Shown here: positions 3,166 through 9,733 of the stretch, in pieces | Position numbering within the stretch: the stretch's first letter is position 1 | Layout: each line of letters begins with the position of its first letter | DNA from: a virus | IMG/VR virus record: IMGVR_UViG_3300028536_000107 | Location: 1-20,416 of that record | Length of the DNA: 20,416 nucleotides | Reading direction: 5' to 3' (one strand) | Position numbers and translations under genes: made by a program | The notes under the pieces: model-generated | The model's database searches: none | Told to the model about the DNA's origin: nothing | Seen by the model: only the letters and a program-made list of their open reading frames with translations

Positions 3166-3497
3166 CCATCAACGAGCAGATCGGCGAGATCAAGCGCAAC
3201 CTGGAGACTCCCGAGGTGGACGGAGTCTCCCTGAAGTGGCAGGCCGCCGCAGATGACGCGGAGCGGAATCTCGCGGGCCTCAGCTACCCCTCATGGGTGG
3301 GATTCGTGGACTTCGACGCACTGCGGGTGTTCTCCTCGCACAACTCAGGAGAGCTGCGCTCCAGGCTGCTCATCCTGGCAGCCAGGTCTATAGCCTGGAT
3401 AGAGGCCATCGACAGGCGCACCACCGAACCGGCCAACACCGGCGAGACGATCGCCTTCTGGCCGCCGATCTACGGGGCGGCCGGTCCATATGCTTGA
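3162..3497 (+). CDS. Hypothetical protein, 111 residues
   Basis: No family is recognised. The product begins with a charged helical segment (INEQIGEIKRNLETPE), has a middle part with several aromatic residues (YPSWVGFVDFDALRVF), then a helix rich in Leu, Ala and Arg, and ends in FWPPIYGAAGPYA. No transmembrane segment or cysteine motif is seen. GTG 3162 overlaps the methyltransferase stop, and the gene's end overlaps the sigma-like gene by eight bases. This supports real, coupled translation in the left rightward operon. Function unknown. Confidence 0.7.
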   Translation: MTINEQIGEIKRNLETPEVDGVSLKWQAAADDAERNLAGLSYPSWVGFVDFDALRVFSSHNSGELRSRLLILAARSIAWIEAIDRRTTEPANTGETIAFWPPIYGAAGPYA

Positions 3498-4149
3498 GGG
3501 GTTCGACTACGAAGCAATGGAGGACCTCGCGTCGCGAGCCTCCAGCTCTGTATGCAAGCGCATCGCCGGCAGCTCCTGGGAGGACCTCAAGCAAGATGGC
3601 ATTGTCTGGATGCTCTCGCACGAGCACAAGCTGATCGAGTGGTCAGAGGACCCCGACCAGGGGTACGGCAAGACCTACCGCTCGGTCTACCACTGCCTGT
3701 TGGATCTGGCCCAGCGGGACAAGGCCGTACGTACCGGCTATCGCCCCGAGGACAACTTCTACTACAGCCTGTCGATGCTCAAGCGCATCCTGCCGCTGTT
3801 CTACGCCGACGTGTTGGCAGATCTCTCGGATGAGCTGGTTCAGGAGCTGGACCTGCCGGACAGAGACGCCAAGCTTGACGTGGAGATGGGCCTGAAGAAG
3901 TGCAGGATTAGTATCCGCCAGGCGCTGTTCGCCTGGTTCCACGAGGACAGGGATCAGTCCGAGGTGGTCTCCGAGATCGCCGAGGAGAACGACATCAGCT
4001 ATGAAGCAGCACGCAAGCGTTGGGAGAGGACCATTGCCAGACTGCAATCAGCCATCGGGGGGCCCGCCCCTACGTATCACCGACCCCGGAAGGCCATCAG
4101 CAATGCAGCAGCCCAAGCAATCACCAGCAACGCCTATGATCCAAACTGA
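3490..4149 (+). CDS. Sigma-like / helix-turn-helix regulatory protein
   Basis: The 219-residue product looks like a divergent sigma-70-type protein. An N-terminal helical part (SWEDLKQDGIVWMLSHEH, 29-46) recalls sigma region 2. The C-terminal segment 157-187 (EVVSEIAEENDISYEAARKR onward) has the form of the region-4 helix-turn-helix: turn at ENDIS, recognition helix YEAARKRWERT. It would bind host RNA polymerase or DNA and redirect transcription to phage promoters; this role is inferred. The tail after 190 is basic and Ala/Pro-rich. ATG 3490 lies within the end of the preceding gene, and the next gene starts inside this one, so all are one operon. A different HTH regulator is the main alternative. 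Confidence 0.6.
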   Translation: MLEGFDYEAMEDLASRASSSVCKRIAGSSWEDLKQDGIVWMLSHEHKLIEWSEDPDQGYGKTYRSVYHCLLDLAQRDKAVRTGYRPEDNFYYSLSMLKRILPLFYADVLADLSDELVQELDLPDRDAKLDVEMGLKKCRISIRQALFAWFHEDRDQSEVVSEIAEENDISYEAARKRWERTIARLQSAIGGPAPTYHRPRKAISNAAAQAITSNAYDPN

Positions 4150-4475: not shown

Positions 4476-4772
4476 CTAGAAGACGATCGTTGGATCCCAC
4501 TCCAGGTCGGCCCACTCGGGGTACTTCTTGGGGCTCAGGTGGGCGGGCACGTCGGCCCATCCCTCGTCTGACCAGCAGTAGTCGGCGCAAGTCCAAGCCG
4601 CTGGACTGAAGCTGTTCTCAATCTCGCTGAAATCTTCGAAGATCTCGATCATGCGGCGGCAGACGTTGGGTCCGCCAACGTAAACGTCGCTGTAGATTCC
4701 GTCCACTTCGATGTGGTCGACCGATTGAACTTCCCATCCGAGATCGTTGAGGGAAACCCCGACTCCGCTCAT
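4476..4772 (-). CDS. Hypothetical acidic, aromatic-rich protein, 98 residues
   Basis: The family is unknown. The product is acidic with many Trp/Tyr (WTCADYCWSDEGWADV, YPEWADLEW) and three cysteines. Small, acidic, aromatic-rich proteins of this sort in phage early operons often bind host proteins; that is an inference. AAGGAG lies five to six bases before the ATG, and the ATG overlaps the stop of the upstream small gene (ATGA). It is the last gene of the leftward operon, ending just before the shared terminator. Confidence 0.72.
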   Translation of the reverse strand: MSGVGVSLNDLGWEVQSVDHIEVDGIYSDVYVGGPNVCRRMIEIFEDFSEIENSFSPAAWTCADYCWSDEGWADVPAHLSPKKYPEWADLEWDPTIVF

Positions 4773-4936
4773 GAAGGCTCCTTCGGTTGATAGATGGGCT
4801 CAATGTCCCCCAGCTGTGCTTCCTGGCACGCCGCCAGGAACACGTTTTCTGCGGAGCCGTCGTTTTTGCGAAGGGACGCAGTCCACAGCCAGCATCCTGG
4901 TGTGTACTGCACCTTGCTCCAGAATCTATCGCTCAT
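4769..4936 (-). CDS. Truncated HNH-type N-terminal domain, 55 residues
   Basis: The product begins MSDRFWSKVQYTPGCWLWTA. The pattern FW.KV...GCWLWT is the recognisable N-terminus of phage and homing HNH endonucleases. In those it is followed by a GYG.F segment and the HNH core. Here the sequence changes after about residue 25, there is no His-rich core, and the ORF stops at residue 55. It is therefore either a decayed endonuclease or a retained DNA-binding fragment. The stop overlaps the next ATG, and the start is four bases after the upstream stop. A GGAGG lies about 15 bases upstream of the start, rather far. The overlaps suggest it is still translated. Confidence 0.6.
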   Translation of the reverse strand: MSDRFWSKVQYTPGCWLWTASLRKNDGSAENVFLAACQEAQLGDIEPIYQPKEPS

Positions 4937-4940
4937 AGAT

Positions 4941-5291
4941 CTACTGTAGCACCTCCTTGAGGAGCGCCGGGTCGATCTCTTCGCCCGGCTGGACGAACTG
5001 CGCCGTCATAACTCGTACCTCGGGATGAGCCTTGCGCTCGGCCCTAGCGGCAGCGCCTGCTTCTGCCGCCGTGTAGAACGGACCTACCACCCACGTGGGG
5101 CAGAACTCTCGCAGACCTCCAGAAGTCGGCCTGGAGCGATCCTGCGCGATGACCACGTACTTGAAGTCCCTCTTGCGGAGGGACTCAAGCGCTTCAAGTA
5201 CCTTGTCGGCCACTTCACCGGCCGAGAGCGAGGCATTGCCCTCGTCAGACAACACCTCGCCGACTGCGGCGATCTGTTTATCGGCTGCCAT
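4941..5291 (-). CDS. Hypothetical protein, 116 residues
   Basis: No known family is recognised. The N-terminal half is helical and Ala/Glu-rich (about 1-40), followed by an alpha/beta-like part (DFKYVVIAQDRSRP, PTWVVGPFYTAAEAGAAARA) and a PGEEIDPALLKEVLQ tail. There are no membrane segments; the single Cys gives no metal motif. GGAGG five bases before the ATG strongly supports the start. It belongs to the leftward small-gene operon, about 50 bases downstream of the CxxC microprotein. Confidence 0.75.
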   Translation of the reverse strand: MAADKQIAAVGEVLSDEGNASLSAGEVADKVLEALESLRKRDFKYVVIAQDRSRPTSGGLREFCPTWVVGPFYTAAEAGAAARAERKAHPEVRVMTAQFVQPGEEIDPALLKEVLQ

Positions 5292-5319
5292 TCCAACCTC
5301 CGTTGTGAATGGTTACTCC

Positions 5320-5331
5320 CCGCACGTGCGG
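5320..5331. promoter_or_regulatory. 12-bp perfect palindrome CCGCACGTGCGG
   Basis: A perfect palindrome lies in the short gap between the genes ending at 5342 and starting at 5291, one of the few gaps in this operon. It could bind a dimeric regulator or form a small stem in the transcript. The palindrome is seen directly; the function is a guess. Confidence 0.3.
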
Positions 5332-5341
5332 TGCAGTGCGG

Positions 5342-5509
5342 TTAGTGGCCACCGACCTTCCTCCCCGTCTCCAAATTGGGTCGGGCGCTGTACTCGGGAA
5401 TCTCCATGAAGGTCTCCCAGTGCCACACAGCAGCACAGGCGTCGCACATGGCGTAGGCGCCGCAGTGGAAGCGGTCGTGGTAGCGCCACAGGCGCTCATC
5501 GAGGTTCAC
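5342..5509 (-). CDS. CxxC microprotein, 55 residues
   Basis: The small ORF starts at GTG 5509. The product (MNLDERLWRYHDRFHCGAYA onward) contains H15 and C16, then C22 and C25 in AMCDACAAVWHW, with H30: a cluster of Cys and His that could hold one zinc. The rest is polar, ending TGRKVGGH. The GTG overlaps the stop of the upstream gene (GTGA), a strong sign of coupled translation. Such zinc microproteins in phages often bind nucleic acid or host RNA polymerase, but no partner is shown here. Confidence 0.65.
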   Translation of the reverse strand: MNLDERLWRYHDRFHCGAYAMCDACAAVWHWETFMEIPEYSARPNLETGRKVGGH

Positions 5510-5784
5510 GCCAGTCCCCGCTCATCGCGGAGGTAGTCAGACGAGTCGGACGCAGTCCGATCGTTGCAGTATTCGCGCTCCTCGCGAAGACTATCCATGA
5601 GGACATCCTCTTCGTCCGGGTACGGCCTGCCGAAGTAGTCGGCGGCAGCCAGGCGGCGCTCAAGGATGCACGTCACCCAACCCTCGTCCCACGCAGTGGA
5701 CATGACGTCCACCTTCTTCCACCACCCGGGGCACTGCTCGTCCCAGAGCACAAGAAGCTTGCGGTTGCTCTCGCTCATGGCCAC
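5506..5784 (-). CDS. Hypothetical protein, 92 residues
   Basis: I do not recognise this. The protein has a Trp/Cys-rich N-terminal half (LWDEQCPGWWKKVDV, STAWDEGWVTCILERRL) and a highly acidic C-terminal half (PDEEDVLMDSLREEREY). GTG 5784 is preferred because AAGGAG lies eight bases before it; the in-frame ATG at 5778 would be 14 bases away. It is in tandem with the 67-residue gene upstream (two-base gap) and overlaps the CxxC gene downstream. Confidence 0.72.
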   Translation of the reverse strand: MAMSESNRKLLVLWDEQCPGWWKKVDVMSTAWDEGWVTCILERRLAAADYFGRPYPDEEDVLMDSLREEREYCNDRTASDSSDYLRDERGLA

Positions 5785-5786
5785 GC

Positions 5787-5990
5787 TTACAGCTCCTTCT
5801 CGAAGGTGACATCGCCGAGCTTGACCACGGTCTCGCCGGCCTCGTCCAACAGGTCGAACGCCACATACGGAGCGTCCTCCTTCGTGCGGGCGATGACGTG
5901 GACCGTGGTGGCCAGGATGGCGACAGTGTCGCTGAAGATGGGATCGGGGTCAGTGCTGACCAGTTCCGCCTTGACGGCATATCTGTTCAC
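5787..5990 (-). CDS. Hypothetical small beta-rich protein, 67 residues
   Basis: The family is unknown. Alternating hydrophobic stretches (RYAVKAELVST, TVAILATTVHVIARTKE, PYVAFDLL, ETVVKLGDVTFEKEL) suggest a small all-beta or alpha/beta fold with no cysteines. GTG 5990 has a GGGAG four bases upstream. The stop is two bases before the next start, so it belongs to the leftward operon. The 71-base gap on its upstream side holds no other ORF that I can support. Confidence 0.68.
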   Translation of the reverse strand: MNRYAVKAELVSTDPDPIFSDTVAILATTVHVIARTKEDAPYVAFDLLDEAGETVVKLGDVTFEKEL

Positions 5991-6061
5991 GGTTCTCCCT
6001 TCCGTGGCCCTGATGGGTCACAACACGGCCGACGTTCAAGACGCTGGCCATGCAATGCTCA

Positions 6062-6268
6062 TCAGCTCGCAGGCTTGTGGATGACCCATTCGAGAGGATC
6101 TACGATCCTCCCGTCGAACAGCTTGTACGCGTAGTAGGGCCAGTCCCACGAAGGGCTGTCCACCACGCTGTCCACGCGCACCTTCTCGGTCGTGCGGGTG
6201 TGCTCCACCTCAAGGCCCGCAAGCCTCTCGGTGAGGTCGTGCAGGTCCACCTTGTTGATCCTGAACAT
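6062..6268 (-). CDS. Hypothetical protein, 68 residues
   Basis: Unknown family. The sequence runs MFRINKVDLHDLTERLAGLE, then a Thr/Val-rich part, then WDWPYYAYKLFDGRIVDPLEWV. No cysteines or membrane helix. GGAGG five bases before the ATG supports the start; the ATG directly abuts the TAG of the upstream membrane-protein gene (TAGATG). It shares the layout of its neighbours and is likely co-transcribed with them. Confidence 0.72.
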   Translation of the reverse strand: MFRINKVDLHDLTERLAGLEVEHTRTTEKVRVDSVVDSPSWDWPYYAYKLFDGRIVDPLEWVIHKPAS

Positions 6269-6430
6269 CTAGTCCTCCGTACTCAACACGCCGAGAGAGA
6301 GCGCTGCGGCACTAATGATGGCCGCCCACAGGGGCAGACACCAGACGGTCTCTTGAAGCCAGCTGCCCATCAGGCAGCCAGTGGCCACGAAGCAGACGCA
6401 GAGCGTCAGCACTGCCAGGAAGTTCTTCAT
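6269..6430 (-). CDS. Small membrane protein, 53 residues
   Basis: The product has two hydrophobic stretches: about residues 4-20 (FLAVLTLCVCFVATGCL) and 29-50 (VWCLPLWAAIISAAALSLGV), with a short loop MGSWLQET. It could be a two-helix inner-membrane protein; VATGC is only a weak lipobox. A GAGG-type ribosome binding site lies about ten bases before the ATG, and the TAG abuts the next gene's ATG. Small two-helix proteins in phage early operons can act in superinfection exclusion, or as holins when beside a lysin. No lysin is adjacent here, so the role is open. Confidence 0.65.
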   Translation of the reverse strand: MKNFLAVLTLCVCFVATGCLMGSWLQETVWCLPLWAAIISAAALSLGVLSTED

Positions 6431-6432
6431 GC

Positions 6433-6606
6433 CTAGCTCACCTCACTGTCGATGGCACTCAGCAAGGCCTCCACGGCCACGCTGAGCTTGTGCGAGTGCT
6501 CCCGGGCACGACCCTGTCGGTTGAGCTCCCTCAGGGCTTCCTCGACGTCCTCAAGGGCCTTGTCGGTCCTCTTGGTGTACTGCTTAGTCTTGTAGACATA
6601 CCGCAT
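6433..6606 (-). CDS. Small charged helical protein, 57 residues
   Basis: The product (MRYVYKTKQYTKRTDKALED onward) is very basic at the start and then mostly helical with alternating Glu/Arg/Leu (VEEALRELNRQ, LSVAVEALLSAI). It may form a helical hairpin or short coiled coil. The ribosome binding site GGAGGAG lies six bases before the ATG, among the clearest in the window. Its stop is two bases before the membrane-protein ATG. Function unknown; the strong signal and tight packing make it a convincing gene despite its size. Confidence 0.68.
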   Translation of the reverse strand: MRYVYKTKQYTKRTDKALEDVEEALRELNRQGRAREHSHKLSVAVEALLSAIDSEVS

Positions 6607-6618
6607 GATGATCTCCTC

Positions 6619-6777
6619 CTAGTTGGCGATGTGCGCCGACGTGATGACGTAGGCGAGGTGGTGCTGACGCAACCAGACCCTCATGAGAGCCCATGCGTGC
6701 TGGTCGTCGTCCGCGTAGAAGCGGACGCTGGCCTCGTTGTGTGCTGCGGTCTCGTACCAAACAGTGAGCTTGCTCAT
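6619..6777 (-). CDS. Hypothetical protein, 52 residues, first gene of leftward operon
   Basis: The frame opens further upstream (6840), but ATG 6777 has GGAG five bases before it, and the upstream extension would run into the tRNA-like structure, so 6777 is chosen. The product MSKLTVWYETAAHNEASVRF onward looks like a small alpha/beta protein (VRFYADDDQHAWALMRVWLRQHH, then AYVITSAHIAN), possibly substrate- or partner-binding; no family is recognised. It is the promoter-proximal gene of the leftward operon and lies 35 bases downstream of the CCA end of the tRNA-like element. Confidence 0.65.
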   Translation of the reverse strand: MSKLTVWYETAAHNEASVRFYADDDQHAWALMRVWLRQHHLAYVITSAHIAN

Positions 6778-6811: not shown

Positions 6812-6877
6812 TGGTGGCTGTGTGGAGAGTCGAACTCCACTCGCTGGCGGTTGGCCAGCTCTGCCGAGTGACAGCCA
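6812..6877 (-). tRNA. Atypical compact tRNA-like cloverleaf ending in CCA
   Basis: Read on the minus strand, a perfect 7-bp acceptor stem (TGGCTGT / ACAGCCA) is followed by encoded CCA (6814-6812). Between lie a mini D-arm (CTC GGCA GAG, with GG in its loop), an anticodon-like arm (CTGG CCAACCG CCAG), a 3-base variable region and a 6-bp T-arm (GTGGAG / CTCCAC) whose loop TTCGACT has the conserved TTCRA. The total without CCA is 63 bases, shorter than a normal tRNA (about 72-76). Position 33 is C instead of T, and the formal anticodon AAC has an unmodified-type A34, so normal decoding is doubtful. It lies in the leader of the leftward operon and could be a tRNA relic, an RNase P processing site or a tRNA mimic. 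Confidence 0.5.
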
Positions 6878-6878
6878 T

Positions 6879-6896
6879 GGCTCCCTTCCGGGAGCC
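6879..6896. other. Hairpin GGCTCCC-TTCC-GGGAGCC
   Basis: A perfect 7-bp stem with a 4-base loop lies one base from the 5' end of the tRNA-like element. In a leftward transcript it would sit immediately upstream of the cloverleaf. Confidence 0.6.
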
Positions 6897-6910
6897 GTGC
6901 TAGCGGTGTG

Positions 6911-6987
6911 ACAAGGTCCGCCGGGCCTCAGCCCACTCTGTCCTGGGCTCCTTGTGTTTCACCTGAGAGTGTGCCCCTGTGGCACAC
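6911..6987. other. Two structured stems in the divergence region
   Basis: Stem 1 pairs ACAAGG (6911-6916) with CCTTGT (6950-6955) and encloses AGCCC/GGGCT (6930-6934 / 6945-6949). Stem 2 is GTGTGCC (6969-6975), loop CCTGT, GGCACAC (6981-6987). They are part of the hairpin-rich 1 kb between the two operons. Confidence 0.55.
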
Positions 6988-7009
6988 GTCCCACACGATC
7001 GTTAGCCAA

Positions 7010-7062
7010 GCAAACCTTAGTTTGCAGGTCACAGCCTCGCAGCTTACCGACAGTTGTCGGTA
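7010..7062. other. Two further perfect hairpins
   Basis: GCAAAC-CTTA-GTTTGC occupies 7010-7025 (6 bp, 4-base loop). TACCGAC-AGTT-GTCGGTA occupies 7045-7062 (7 bp, 4-base loop). No T-run follows either, so simple terminators are unlikely. Confidence 0.55.
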
Positions 7063-7068
7063 TCATCT

Positions 7069-7320
7069 ATGCATCACACCACATAACAATGCATGGAGTG
7101 AGCACCATTCACGCATCCACATGCGTCATTGATGGTGCGAACGTAATGCATTACCACACACACATCATGTGTGTGCATACTACATTCTTTGAGTGCAAAC
7201 ACTGCATGCCACATCATGCAATAGGCTAGTATTCATTCACTCCATTCACTCATCAACTACCTCATTCAACACTGCATTATCGATGCATTGTTTGTTATCA
7301 CTTCGTGATACAATGCAACC
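7069..7320. repeat. AT-rich stretch with clustered ATGCAT palindromes
   Basis: This is the lowest-GC part of the phage region. ATGCAT occurs at 7069, 7089, 7146 and 7283, and further TGCA words are dense. Included are the 12-bp palindrome GTAATGCATTAC (7143-7154), CACACACA-TCA-TGTGTGTG (7157-7175), TGCATG-CCACAT-CATGCA (7203-7220), a tandem pair of CATTCACTC (7234-7251) and a composite stem 7284-7317 (TGCATTG / CAATGCA with inner TATCAC-TTC-GTGATA). Low GC, repeats and palindromes together suit a replication origin or a regulator-binding region; neither is proven. No convincing gene is present. Confidence 0.5.
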
Positions 7321-7349
7321 CCGGGTTGTTGAATTCGCCCGCACTCTGG

Positions 7350-7542
7350 TGAGTGTTACACCACTCAAAAATTTGCCTAAATTTCATCGTGGAAGAATAC
7401 CGAAAGAATGGATGTTCCCTTGGGGAATTCAACAGTCGGCGTACAGGAGGAGTCCACTCCAGGGACTCCGACATGTGACTTGGGTCACACTCTCTAGTTG
7501 TCCACATGGTGGACACGCTACGCTCAACGCCAACTGGTTGAG
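7350..7542. other. Series of six short perfect hairpins
   Basis: In order: TGAGTG/CACTCA (7350-7367), TTCCC/GGGAA (7415-7427), GGAGTCC/GGACTCC (7449-7469), TGTGAC-TTGG-GTCACA (7474-7489), TGTCCAC-ATG-GTGGACA (7499-7515), CTCAAC/GTTGAG (7523-7542). Spacing is short and loops are mostly 3 to 8 bases. An ORF can be read across on the plus strand (7193-7576), but it lacks a ribosome binding site and protein-like composition. Confidence 0.5.
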
Positions 7543-7611
7543 TAAAGTTTTGGTAAAGGAATGTCCAGTACCATGATCCAAAACCCTTCTATCTAGTGAG
7601 GGCACATACCT

Positions 7612-7675
7612 GCAGGGTCTCGACCCTGGAGGGTCTCGACCTCTAGGGAGAGACCCGGAGGGGGAGAGAGCCTGC
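7612..7675. other. Multi-branch structure with repeated GGGTCTCGACC
   Basis: The 11-base word GGGTCTCGACC occurs at 7615 and 7631, 16 bases apart. The first copy forms CAGGGT-CTCG-ACCCTG (7613-7628). The second can form either a similar small CTCG hairpin or a longer stem GGGTCTC/GAGACCC (7631-7637 / 7650-7656). GCAGG (7612-7616) can instead pair with CCTGC (7671-7675). These are mutually exclusive folds in the likely 5' leader of the terminase operon. Confidence 0.5.
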
Positions 7676-7677
7676 CA

Positions 7678-7707
7678 AGAACATCAAGCTTTATTGCTTG
7701 ATGTTCT
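7678..7707. other. Perfect 12-bp hairpin upstream of terminase
   Basis: AGAACATCAAGC pairs exactly with GCTTGATGTTCT around the loop TTTATT. It is followed on the plus strand by AAAAGACAC and has no T-run on either strand, so it is not a textbook terminator. It is the longest perfect stem in the window and stands 11 bases from the next one. Confidence 0.65.
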
Positions 7708-7717
7708 AAAAGACACA

Positions 7718-7768
7718 GTGAAGTTCTTCAAGAGAACTTCACGGATAGTACTACCCCACTACAGTGGG
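7718..7768. other. Perfect 10-bp hairpin and adjacent small hairpin
   Basis: GTGAAGTTCT pairs exactly with AGAACTTCAC (7718-7742) around TCAAG. A smaller stem CCCAC-TACA-GTGGG follows (7756-7767). The TCAAG loop is complementary to CTTGA in the 3' arm of the preceding 12-bp hairpin, so alternative pairing is possible. Both lie within 90 bases of the terminase start. Confidence 0.6.
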
Positions 7769-7807
7769 ACTGCCCCCTAGGGCCAGACCCTGGAGGAGAG
7801 CGAAGCG

Positions 7808-9733
7808 ATGGCTGGTCCCGATCGGCTGTCTGCCGACGAAGCAAAAGTCGAGATCCTGGCCAAGCTCAGGCTTGGCTGGACGGTCCGCAAATGCATGGAG
7901 CAGGTCGGCAAATCGGAGAAGACCTGGGAATACTACCTGAGGTCCGACTCGGTATTCAAGGAGACCGTCACCCAGATCCGCCGTCGCCTGGCGGACGGCG
8001 AGACGACCATTCCGAACTTCCAGCAGTTCTCCGAGCAGTTCTTCGGGATGCGCCTGTTCAGCCACCAGCTCCAGTGGCTGGACCTTCTGGACGGGAAAGC
8101 ACCCAGGAACCTGCACCCTGCTCAGACATACGAGCAGAACGATCCGGACATGATCCTGGTGAACACTCCCCCGGACCATGCGAAGACGATGACCATCTCC
8201 ACGAACTATGTGACCTACCGTATCGTGGAGGACCCCAACATCCGCGTCCTGGTGATCTCGGCCACGGCCACCCAGGCGAACAAGATCCTCTCGGCGATCA
8301 AGGACCGGCTGTCCTCGAAGACCCGCATGTTCGAGGAGCTGAAGGAGGCCTTCGCCCCGAGCGACGGCTACGACGGCAACGGCGCCATGTGGCGCCAGAA
8401 CATGATCTACGTCAACCCGGACCTGCGGACCCGGGGAGAGAAGGACCCGACGGTCCAGGCTCTGGGCATCGGTCAGCACATCTACGGCGCCCGAGCCGAC
8501 CTGATCATCCTCGACGACTGCGTGGACATCGACAACGCCCACGAGTACGAGAAGCAGATCGAGTGGATCCAGACGATCGTCCGGTCCCGGCTGGAGCCGT
8601 ACTCCGGCAAGCTGGTCATCGTGGGGACGCGCCTGAAGGCGCAGGACCTCTACGAGGAGATCCGCAAGCCGCAGCACTACACCGACGGCCAGTCCCCCTG
8701 GACCTACCTCACGCAGCCGGCTGTTCTTGAGCCTGCGGACGATCCTGCCGACTGGGTCGTCATCTGGCCCAAGACGAACGTGAAGCCCCCGGGCAAGCAC
8801 AGCCCGGAGCCGGACGAGAACGGCCTGTTCCCCAGATGGCCGGGCAACACCCTGGCCAGGATCCGCTCCGGCATGAGCTCGGACCGCTGGGCCCGCGTGT
8901 ACATGCAGGCTCAGATCAGCGAGTCCATGACCTTCACTCCGGCGATGGTCTCCGGCTGCACCAACGAGTCCCGCGTTCCGGGGATCATGGTCCCGGGCCA
9001 GCGCGGGCACCGCCCGGACGGGATGCTCGGCCTGTACGTCATCGCGGGCCTCGACCCGGCACCCACCAACTACACGGCCGCCGTCGTTCTCGGCGTCGAC
9101 CGCCAGTCCGGCAGGCGCTACCTGCTGGACGTGTGGAACAAGCACGGCGCACTCCCGCGGGAGATCCGCGAGCTGGTTCAGGCGTGGACCACCCGGTACG
9201 GCATTCTCGAATGGCGCATCGAGGACAACGGCCTGAACAAGTACATCGCCCAGGACGAAGAGATCCTGAAGTGGTGCCGCTCCCGGGGAACCGGCGTCTT
9301 CGGCCACCTCACCAACCAGAACAAGTGGGATTCACAGTTCGGCGTCGCGACCATGGCCAACATGTTCCTCGGCTCCGAGCAGGGCATCAACATGCTCGAG
9401 CTGCCCTCCCGCCGCAACCATGCGGGGATGATGGCCCTCGTCGAGCAGCTGGTCTCCTGGTACCCCACACAGGGCCAGAACAAGATGCCCACGCAGGACT
9501 GCGTCATGGCCCTCTGGTTCGCCGAGCTCCGCGCCCGGCACATCGCAGACGAGCTGGACGGGACCACGCACCTGTCCTCCCCGTACCGGTCTTCCATAGA
9601 ATCCGAGCAGCAGGTGACGATCGACATCGACGCCTTCCTGGCCCGGCAGCACACCGAGGGTCCGGGCGTGACGGACTTCAACGACTGGCTCAAGGCAGAC
9701 AGGCAGCACCAGGGAAGCGGCAGGTGGTGGTGA
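7808..9733 (+). CDS. terL: Terminase large subunit
   Basis: This is the ATP-driven DNA packaging motor and nuclease that loads the phage genome through the portal. The 641-residue product has a divergent Walker A (TPPDHAKT, 120-127), Walker B (DLIILDD, 231-237) and the coupling motif VGTRL (272-276). The C-terminal nuclease domain has acidic residues at the expected places: D416 (VIAGLDPAP), E472/D473 (WRIEDNG) and D564 (PTQDCVMALW). The N-terminal 60 residues have an HTH-like look (TVRKCMEQVGKSEKTWEYYL), so a small-subunit-like function may be built in; no separate small terminase is seen just upstream. GGAGGAG stands nine bases before the ATG. It opens the late operon, one base before the next gene. 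Confidence 0.93.
   Translation: MAGPDRLSADEAKVEILAKLRLGWTVRKCMEQVGKSEKTWEYYLRSDSVFKETVTQIRRRLADGETTIPNFQQFSEQFFGMRLFSHQLQWLDLLDGKAPRNLHPAQTYEQNDPDMILVNTPPDHAKTMTISTNYVTYRIVEDPNIRVLVISATATQANKILSAIKDRLSSKTRMFEELKEAFAPSDGYDGNGAMWRQNMIYVNPDLRTRGEKDPTVQALGIGQHIYGARADLIILDDCVDIDNAHEYEKQIEWIQTIVRSRLEPYSGKLVIVGTRLKAQDLYEEIRKPQHYTDGQSPWTYLTQPAVLEPADDPADWVVIWPKTNVKPPGKHSPEPDENGLFPRWPGNTLARIRSGMSSDRWARVYMQAQISESMTFTPAMVSGCTNESRVPGIMVPGQRGHRPDGMLGLYVIAGLDPAPTNYTAAVVLGVDRQSGRRYLLDVWNKHGALPREIRELVQAWTTRYGILEWRIEDNGLNKYIAQDEEILKWCRSRGTGVFGHLTNQNKWDSQFGVATMANMFLGSEQGINMLELPSRRNHAGMMALVEQLVSWYPTQGQNKMPTQDCVMALWFAELRARHIADELDGTTHLSSPYRSSIESEQQVTIDIDAFLARQHTEGPGVTDFNDWLKADRQHQGSGRWW

Follow-up and report, generated by a model that had tools for sequence, protein, structure and literature searches.

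Dense perfect hairpins around a probable genome end, in a putative divergent control region of a podovirus allied to Beephvirinae

The nearest documented parallel to the locus described here is the genome-end noncoding RNA of cluster A mycobacteriophages, phages that have cos ends and not direct terminal repeats. In L5, D29 and StarStuff, the transcript found in greatest abundance is a stable noncoding RNA of ~500 nt that Pleft produces at the genome end, and the late promoter Pright starts at the other genome end (PMC5712189). The likeness lies in divergent promoters at genome ends with long noncoding leaders ahead of the first genes (PMC5712189), in a 3' end without canonical terminator and in hairpin-rich ends, the left end of mycobacteriophage Phantastic (1-424) having 8 hairpins where 1.0 is expected. 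However, no sequence similarity was seen between the two systems, and the cluster A RNA has been measured whereas the one discussed here is predicted. T7-like phages offer a second comparison, since our phage has podovirus relatives with direct terminal repeats, its TerL is related to the T7 type and a palindrome lies near the predicted end, but no T7 RNA polymerase system was seen in the DNA analysed and short hairpins are scarce at the ends of T7 (2-3 vs 0.9-1.5 expected). Finally, leader-encoded antitermination RNAs (HK022 put, lambda nut) form hairpins just downstream of the promoter that drives a long phage operon. Hairpins after a promoter-like motif are found here too, and relatives have a GAGCG...AGCGA element with alternative stems, but no boxA/boxB or put sequence was recognized and there was no Rfam match. 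Literature searches turned up no direct account of antitermination or of leader hairpins in actinophages.

The DNA analysed, hereafter the window, is an entire viral metagenome record, a linear fragment of 20,416 bp. Judging by its proteins and gene order, it comes from a podovirus-type phage akin to the Beephvirinae (cluster BF of the actinobacteriophages), outside the named genera of that group. The hairpins occupy a gap of ~0.95 kb between leftward small genes and the rightward TerL gene (7808), and the genes that matter for what follows are:
3490..4149, + strand: sigma-factor-like protein (phrog_354, E = 1.3e-4; BLASTP E = 2e-10 to WRightOn 'sigma-K factor')
6619..6777, - strand: first small leftward ORF, 52 aa, from the ORF list, with start ATG at 6777 preceded by a purine-rich GGAGAG; borders the gap on the left; no match in a family search
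7808..9733, + strand: terminase large subunit (TerL), first gene of the rightward late operon (phrog_38, E = 1e-58)

The window TerL is 44-45% identical to those of the cluster BF Streptomyces phages (95-98% coverage) and weakly similar to the T7 type. The order sigma-like gene, leftward small genes, gap, TerL and portal is that of WRightOn read circularly, hence the window spans the point where linear Beephvirinae genomes end. Besides TerL and the gene order around the gap, the likeness to WRightOn, Manuel, FlowerPower, Immanuel3 and Abafar extends to a repeat-end motif, a promoter-like motif and a moderate hairpin excess upstream of TerL. In contrast, the window gap has several times more hairpins, and a tRNA-like cloverleaf adjoins it whereas the tRNA cluster of WRightOn is in the late region. 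No nucleotide similarity of the gap to phage records, including Beephvirinae, was detected. ARAGORN found no tRNA in the 20.4-kb fragment, and the segment homologous to WRightOn's tRNA cluster (15-20 genes in Beephvirinae) falls outside it; Rfam 15 gave no match in the window at gathering score, and chance-level matches only at a relaxed threshold. Ahead of the actinophage-like genome, positions 56-1443 encode pyrE (TIGR00336, E = 1e-37) and weakly resemble the C-terminal end of a receptor of the TonB-dependent kind; genes of this Gram-negative type suggest that the contig is chimeric or contains a remnant of a host.

The preliminary description of this gap as a gene-free region densely filled with perfect hairpins is borne out. 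There is no supported ORF in it, although mechanical ORFs do exist (e.g. 7193-7576, + strand). When non-overlapping perfect inverted repeats with loops of 3-10 were counted in 6879-7790, 18 had stems of at least 6 bp, a number reached by none of 1000 whole-region dinucleotide shuffles (mean 1.66, maximum 6) and above anything in 150-bp block shuffles (mean 2.1, maximum 8). The excess over dinucleotide shuffles is seen with stems of at least 5 bp (22 vs 5.9), at least 7 bp (8 vs 0.45) and at least 10 bp (two, of 10 and 12 bp, vs 0.005). It is present across the sub-zones of the gap and is weakest in the ATGCAT-rich 7061-7318 (4 vs 1.0 in shuffles) and in the TerL leader, where three stems of at least 6 bp vs 0.4 nevertheless include those of 10 and 12 bp. 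Of all 912-bp stretches in the window, 6879-7790 has the highest hairpin density. Peak counts in any 912-bp stretch were 5 for T7, 8 for phiC31, 11 for WRightOn, 14 for Phantastic, 14 and 16 for the genomes of two relatives (L080 and L081) and 20 for the window; since the relatives come close behind the window, itself the most extreme case seen, hairpin richness is characteristic of the clade. The excess is also found outside the gap, in the leftward small-gene region 4476-6777 (18 vs 4.6 in shuffles) and in the late genes (41 vs 27). That the hairpins are not ordinary terminators is upheld by the chance frequency of intrinsic terminators (GC-rich stem then T-run) in the gap, where two weak sites were found vs 0.9 expected.

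Relatives have such stems as well, so that neither of the outcomes named beforehand as refuting the description, a similar stem density in shuffled sequence or stems missing from relatives, was observed. In one survey, an excess was seen in each relative having 150 bp or more of sequence ahead of TerL (TerL 37-66% identical), with 3-16 hairpins vs 0.4-2.6 expected (L081, 16 vs 1.9; L075, 15 vs 1.7; L054, 13 vs 2.0; L083, 13 vs 2.6; L053, 11 vs 1.7; L080, 9 in 479 bp vs 0.95), the Beephvirinae having 3-6 vs about 1.2, and a second survey found most other relatives to be likewise hairpin-rich. When 33 non-redundant genomes are taken together, hairpins exceed expectation most strongly at 100-200 bp upstream of TerL (58 vs 5.9). 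A search for a single sequence motif common to all palindromes found none; sequences are dissimilar even within one genome. A three-way alignment of the window with L053 and L080 is more telling. The three genomes share as anchors one half of the end motif, TTCCCNNGGGGAA and TCGGCG, and after the TCGGCG anchor GGAGTCC...GGACTCC in the window corresponds to AGCTCC-AGA-GGAGCT and ACACGGT-TACAG-ACCGTGT in the other two. Such dissimilar palindromes at homologous positions are the most direct evidence that the hairpin form is retained and not the sequence, in agreement with the original remark that one form recurs with unrelated sequences. The inverted repeats lack one common protein-binding sequence, and it is the hairpin form that is conserved.

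From the leftward genes to the putative genome end, the following features can be distinguished:
6812..6878, - strand: tRNA-like cloverleaf in the leader of the leftward genes (fold z = -4.67, pattern scan)
6879..7062: left hairpin cluster (6879-6896, 6930-6949, 6969-6987, 7010-7025 and 7045-7062; spacing about 36-52 bp)
7061..7318: AT-richer segment, candidate terminal-repeat body by composition and by analogy to the 253-275 bp repeats of Beephvirinae
7323..7355, + strand: terminal-repeat end motif GGGTTGTTNA-N15-GGNGAGTG, matched without mismatch
7350..7367: palindrome TGAGTG-TTACAC-CACTCA across the predicted end (inverted-repeat scan)

The cloverleaf has a very short or near-absent D arm, a TTCGACT T-loop, an encoded CCA and the anticodon loop CCAACCG; called by neither ARAGORN nor Rfam, it is cloverleaf-like and would be a decayed tRNA or a tRNA mimic. 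At a similar place, ct2KA10 (L004, 2165-2210) has a T-arm plus acceptor mimic. The adjoining cluster contains four complete hairpins within 6879-7060 vs 0.37 in shuffles. Further right, 7061-7318 has short palindromes at 7111-7126, 7157-7175, 7203-7220 and 7296-7310, and ATGCA/TGCAT occurs there 13 times vs 4.9 in shuffles, where the terminal repeats of Beephvirinae have a recurring ATGTCC; these might be species-specific iterons.

The case for a genome end comes from the motif at 7323-7355. The records of FlowerPower, WRightOn and Immanuel3 have direct terminal repeats of 253, 264 and 275 bp, the first figure being stated for FlowerPower and kin in PMC9753666, and in all three the repeat terminates exactly at the last base of the motif; the record of Abafar has a 396-bp repeat that ends elsewhere. 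The motif lies about 490 bp from the aligned TerL start in the window and about 490-530 bp in Beephvirinae. Shuffles of the whole window gave 0.15 matches even at up to three mismatches, for a pattern that was drawn up with the window already in view. Scanning 2.9 million viral contigs returned 21 matches: two had no related TerL nearby and were read as chance, two were copies at genome right ends, and all the others preceded a related TerL. Bacterial genomes, 257 billion bases in all, had 50 scattered matches, which is about the chance number. The terminal repeat itself is not visible in an assembled fragment, but the motif is intact, which is why the gap is probably a genome terminus that was assembled through; the direct terminal repeat is predicted to end on the right at about 7355. 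A cut at exactly this position is insecure, since L053 and L080, the closest relatives with a full gap, retain only the left half of the motif (GGGTCTTTAAAA-like). Overlaps of 127 bases at the ends of two ~46-kb contigs were judged to be k-mer assembly overlaps of circular graphs and were rejected as terminal repeats.

A packaging or terminus element, one of several readings proposed at the outset, is therefore supported for 7323-7355 by the Beephvirinae repeat-end motif, the whole gap being a composite of several of these readings. It is possible, but in our view quite unlikely, that the hairpins act as DNA, giving signals for packaging, replication or the processing of ends that terminase and nucleases would fold or bind, in the manner of hairpin-assisted formation of terminal repeats. 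The presence of the end motif inside the gap would fit, as would a palindrome across the predicted end both in the window and, with the sequence TGTGTGTGTG-CTATCC-CACACACACA, at the homologous place in L080, the weak similarity of TerL to the T7 type, the equal stability of both strands and, in many relatives, a TerL-proximal leader part made of a motif that is also found near the left ends of cluster A-like mycobacteriophages. However, the strongest hairpins are in the 200 bp beside TerL, which places them beyond a promoter-like motif and some 250-450 bp from the repeat end, and the terminal repeats of Beephvirinae are themselves not especially hairpin-rich.

The motif mentioned last, CCCTYCTTTAATGGTTYCCCC, is absent from the window and was rejected as one of its elements. 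It is common in relatives and nearly invariant in the TerL leaders of one group of them, about 50-100 bp upstream of TerL (L062, L066, L067, L071, L074, L084, L085 and others), and it occurs at about 174-196 in L156-L159, L161, L163 and L165. Near the left ends of mycobacteriophages (e.g. Phantastic) it lies opposite to gene direction beside HNH or terminase small subunit genes, and it is possibly a shared packaging signal.

Between the predicted end and the TerL leader comes a putative operator/promoter zone shared by relatives:
7415..7427: hairpin TTCCC-TTG-GGGAA, at the same position and nearly the same in sequence in L053 and L080
7449..7469: palindrome GGAGTCC...GGACTCC, after the TCGGCG anchor shared with L053 and L080
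7474..7489: palindrome TGTGAC-TTGG-GTCACA, of Crp-like form (inverted-repeat scan)
7499..7542: palindromes TGTCCAC-ATG-GTGGACA and CTCAAC...GTTGAG (inverted-repeat scan)
7543..7557, + strand: operator-like direct repeat TAAAGTTTTGGTAAA, for which relatives have TAACGATTTGGTAAC
7587..7601, + strand: promoter-like TCTATCTAGTGAGGG, counterpart of TATATATANTGNGGG in relatives

A direct repeat resembling TAACGATTTGGTAAC is found above the promoter-like motif in 18/33 non-redundant genomes, the window included, vs 0.23 in shuffles. A string like TATATATANTGNGGG (at most two mismatches) lies 130-420 bp upstream of TerL in 24/33 genomes, again with the window, vs 0.23 in shuffles; L080 and L053 have no good match (five mismatches). 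A sigma-70 consensus promoter was looked for and not found, and the sigma-like protein encoded at 3490-4149 may drive the late promoter. Palindromes such as TGTGAC-N4-GTCACA, which many relatives have downstream of the end motif (TGTGA-N6-TCACA in Beephvirinae), would be expected of an operator array with sites for several dimeric regulators, and 300-600 bp upstream of TerL loops have no end preference, as for spacers. To extend this reading to the palindromes at large is nonetheless very improbable, because most of them are unrelated within a genome and between homologous positions, so that form outlasts sequence, and because stems of 10-12 bp with loops of 5-6 nt beside TerL are not operator-like.

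The promoter-like motif is immediately followed by the leader of the TerL operon, whose main elements are:
7602..7807, + strand: hairpin-rich 5' leader of the TerL operon, ~210 nt, from the fold of 7598-7810
7612..7675, + strand: long irregular hairpin, with alternative pairings in which GGGTCTC at 7615 and 7631 can compete for GAGACCC at 7650
7678..7707, + strand: 12-bp perfect hairpin AGAACATCAAGC-TTTATT-GCTTGATGTTCT (inverted-repeat scan)
7718..7742, + strand: 10-bp perfect hairpin GTGAAGTTCT-TCAAG-AGAACTTCAC (inverted-repeat scan)
7755..7768, + strand: 5-bp hairpin CCCAC-TACA-GTGGG (inverted-repeat scan)

The fold of 7598-7810 reaches -103.8 kcal/mol (z = -8.0), and the leaders of L080 and L053 have a comparable series of hairpins. 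The preliminary description had offered a long structured leader and a structured noncoding RNA as alternatives. The former gains support for the part ahead of TerL, from its position, the shared promoter-like motif, its fold and the same architecture in relatives; a single structured RNA across 0.9 kb received none, and the composite is favoured.

In about a dozen relatives (L058, L062, L064, L066, L067, L069, L071, L074, L075, L081, L084 and L085), the first element after the promoter has a GAGCG...AGCGA loop, and its 5' arm can pair either with the arm just past the loop or with another complement more distally. This 5' arm varies among leaders (GTATC, GGAGTC, GGAGCC, GGTGTC, GCAACC, GACAT), and the two complements follow its changes, either completely or with one or two mismatches (0.03 genomes in the shuffle control). 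The window leader is without this loop but has competing pairings of its own. On this comparison of sequences, the TerL-operon leaders of the clade might form a new class of cis-acting phage RNA, a two-partner promoter-proximal switch plus a series of stems conserved in shape only, which would control late transcription by processive antitermination or attenuation; we put this forward tentatively, as it is on the whole doubtful. A further candidate, TTGAGAACTCAACAGTG, which we take to be a sequence of actinobacterial rRNA operon leaders, was rejected as an antitermination signal of the window, from which it is absent. FlowerPower and Immanuel3 have it exactly, L075 and L054 almost exactly. In the right ends of FlowerPower and Immanuel3 (L028 and L030) and in L075, it sits close to where the left operon begins, on the strand transcribed leftward, and it may be a borrowed antitermination signal.

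Whether the hairpins work as RNA or as DNA was addressed by comparing the strands. Fold z-scores are equal for both strands, and wobble interruptions in stems are hardly commoner than A.C (5 vs 3, with 51 perfect stems of 8 or more; too few cases). With the expected wobble pairs and better folding of the + strand both missing, selection on a + strand RNA is not supported. A bias in loop ends near TerL (Y...R 75 vs R...Y 3) was dropped as strand evidence since it is the same after reverse complementing. Unpaired sequence 110-400 bp upstream of TerL is slightly purine-rich, which suggests rightward transcription. We infer that the leader is transcribed on the + strand and acts as RNA, the main argument being its position after the conserved promoter-like motif. 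Perfect pairing is compatible with such a role, since in the early intergenic gaps of WRightOn perfectly paired hairpins bear UNCG tetraloops on the coding strand 6:1. There (L166, 36595-43109), gaps of at least 60 bp between leftward early genes each have at least one strong hairpin and no T-run, the loop often being UUCG or UCCG on the coding strand.

These strand tests also bear on a mutational origin, in which the palindromes would be a functionless by-product of template switching or fold-back synthesis that perfects imperfect repeats in gene-free DNA. Stems that are nearly all Watson-Crick and without strand preference are what this process would leave, as are palindromes that persist while their sequences turn over; perfect repeats moreover exceed shuffles genome-wide in phages of the clade (~2-3 times the shuffled number), and the unrelated phage Phantastic also has hairpin-rich ends. 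On the other hand, the hairpins are at fixed places relative to the anchors and TerL, frequently laid out as one long element followed by three strong stems, the UNCG loops of WRightOn are an RNA signature in perfectly paired hairpins, and the excess is weaker in the intergenic DNA of T7 (1.7-fold) and phiC31 (2.9-fold). A mutational origin is thus possible but, we believe, unlikely.

The explanation that we favour, and consider reasonably probable as a whole, is a composite one, a genome terminus combined with a divergent control region that has hairpin-rich leaders on both sides, whose stem-loops would protect mRNA and shape elongation. From left to right, the start of a leftward early operon with a structured leader would be followed by a direct terminal repeat ending at about 7355 and collapsed to a single copy in the assembly, then by an operator/promoter zone and by a structured 5' leader, ~210 nt long, of the late operon that begins with terminase. 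According to this composite model, the palindromes at about 7320-7560 would be part of the end-processing and regulator zone, while the hairpins near TerL and near the leftward genes are most likely consecutive RNA stem-loops in long 5' leaders; in a cluster BF phage, the late transcript would start at TATATATANTGGGG and have a stable leader. As stable U-less structures, these stem-loops might block 5' exonucleases and influence both elongation and the loading of ribosomes on late and early mRNAs.

For a podovirus clade mostly known from metagenomes, this analysis provides a testable map of the genome end and of late-operon control, in which hairpins stay in place while their sequence changes. 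If the palindromes are mutational, they would document with unusual clarity how palindromes form at phage ends. Should the leaders act as RNA, they would offer a new system for how long late transcripts are controlled or protected in actinophages in the absence of U-tract terminators.
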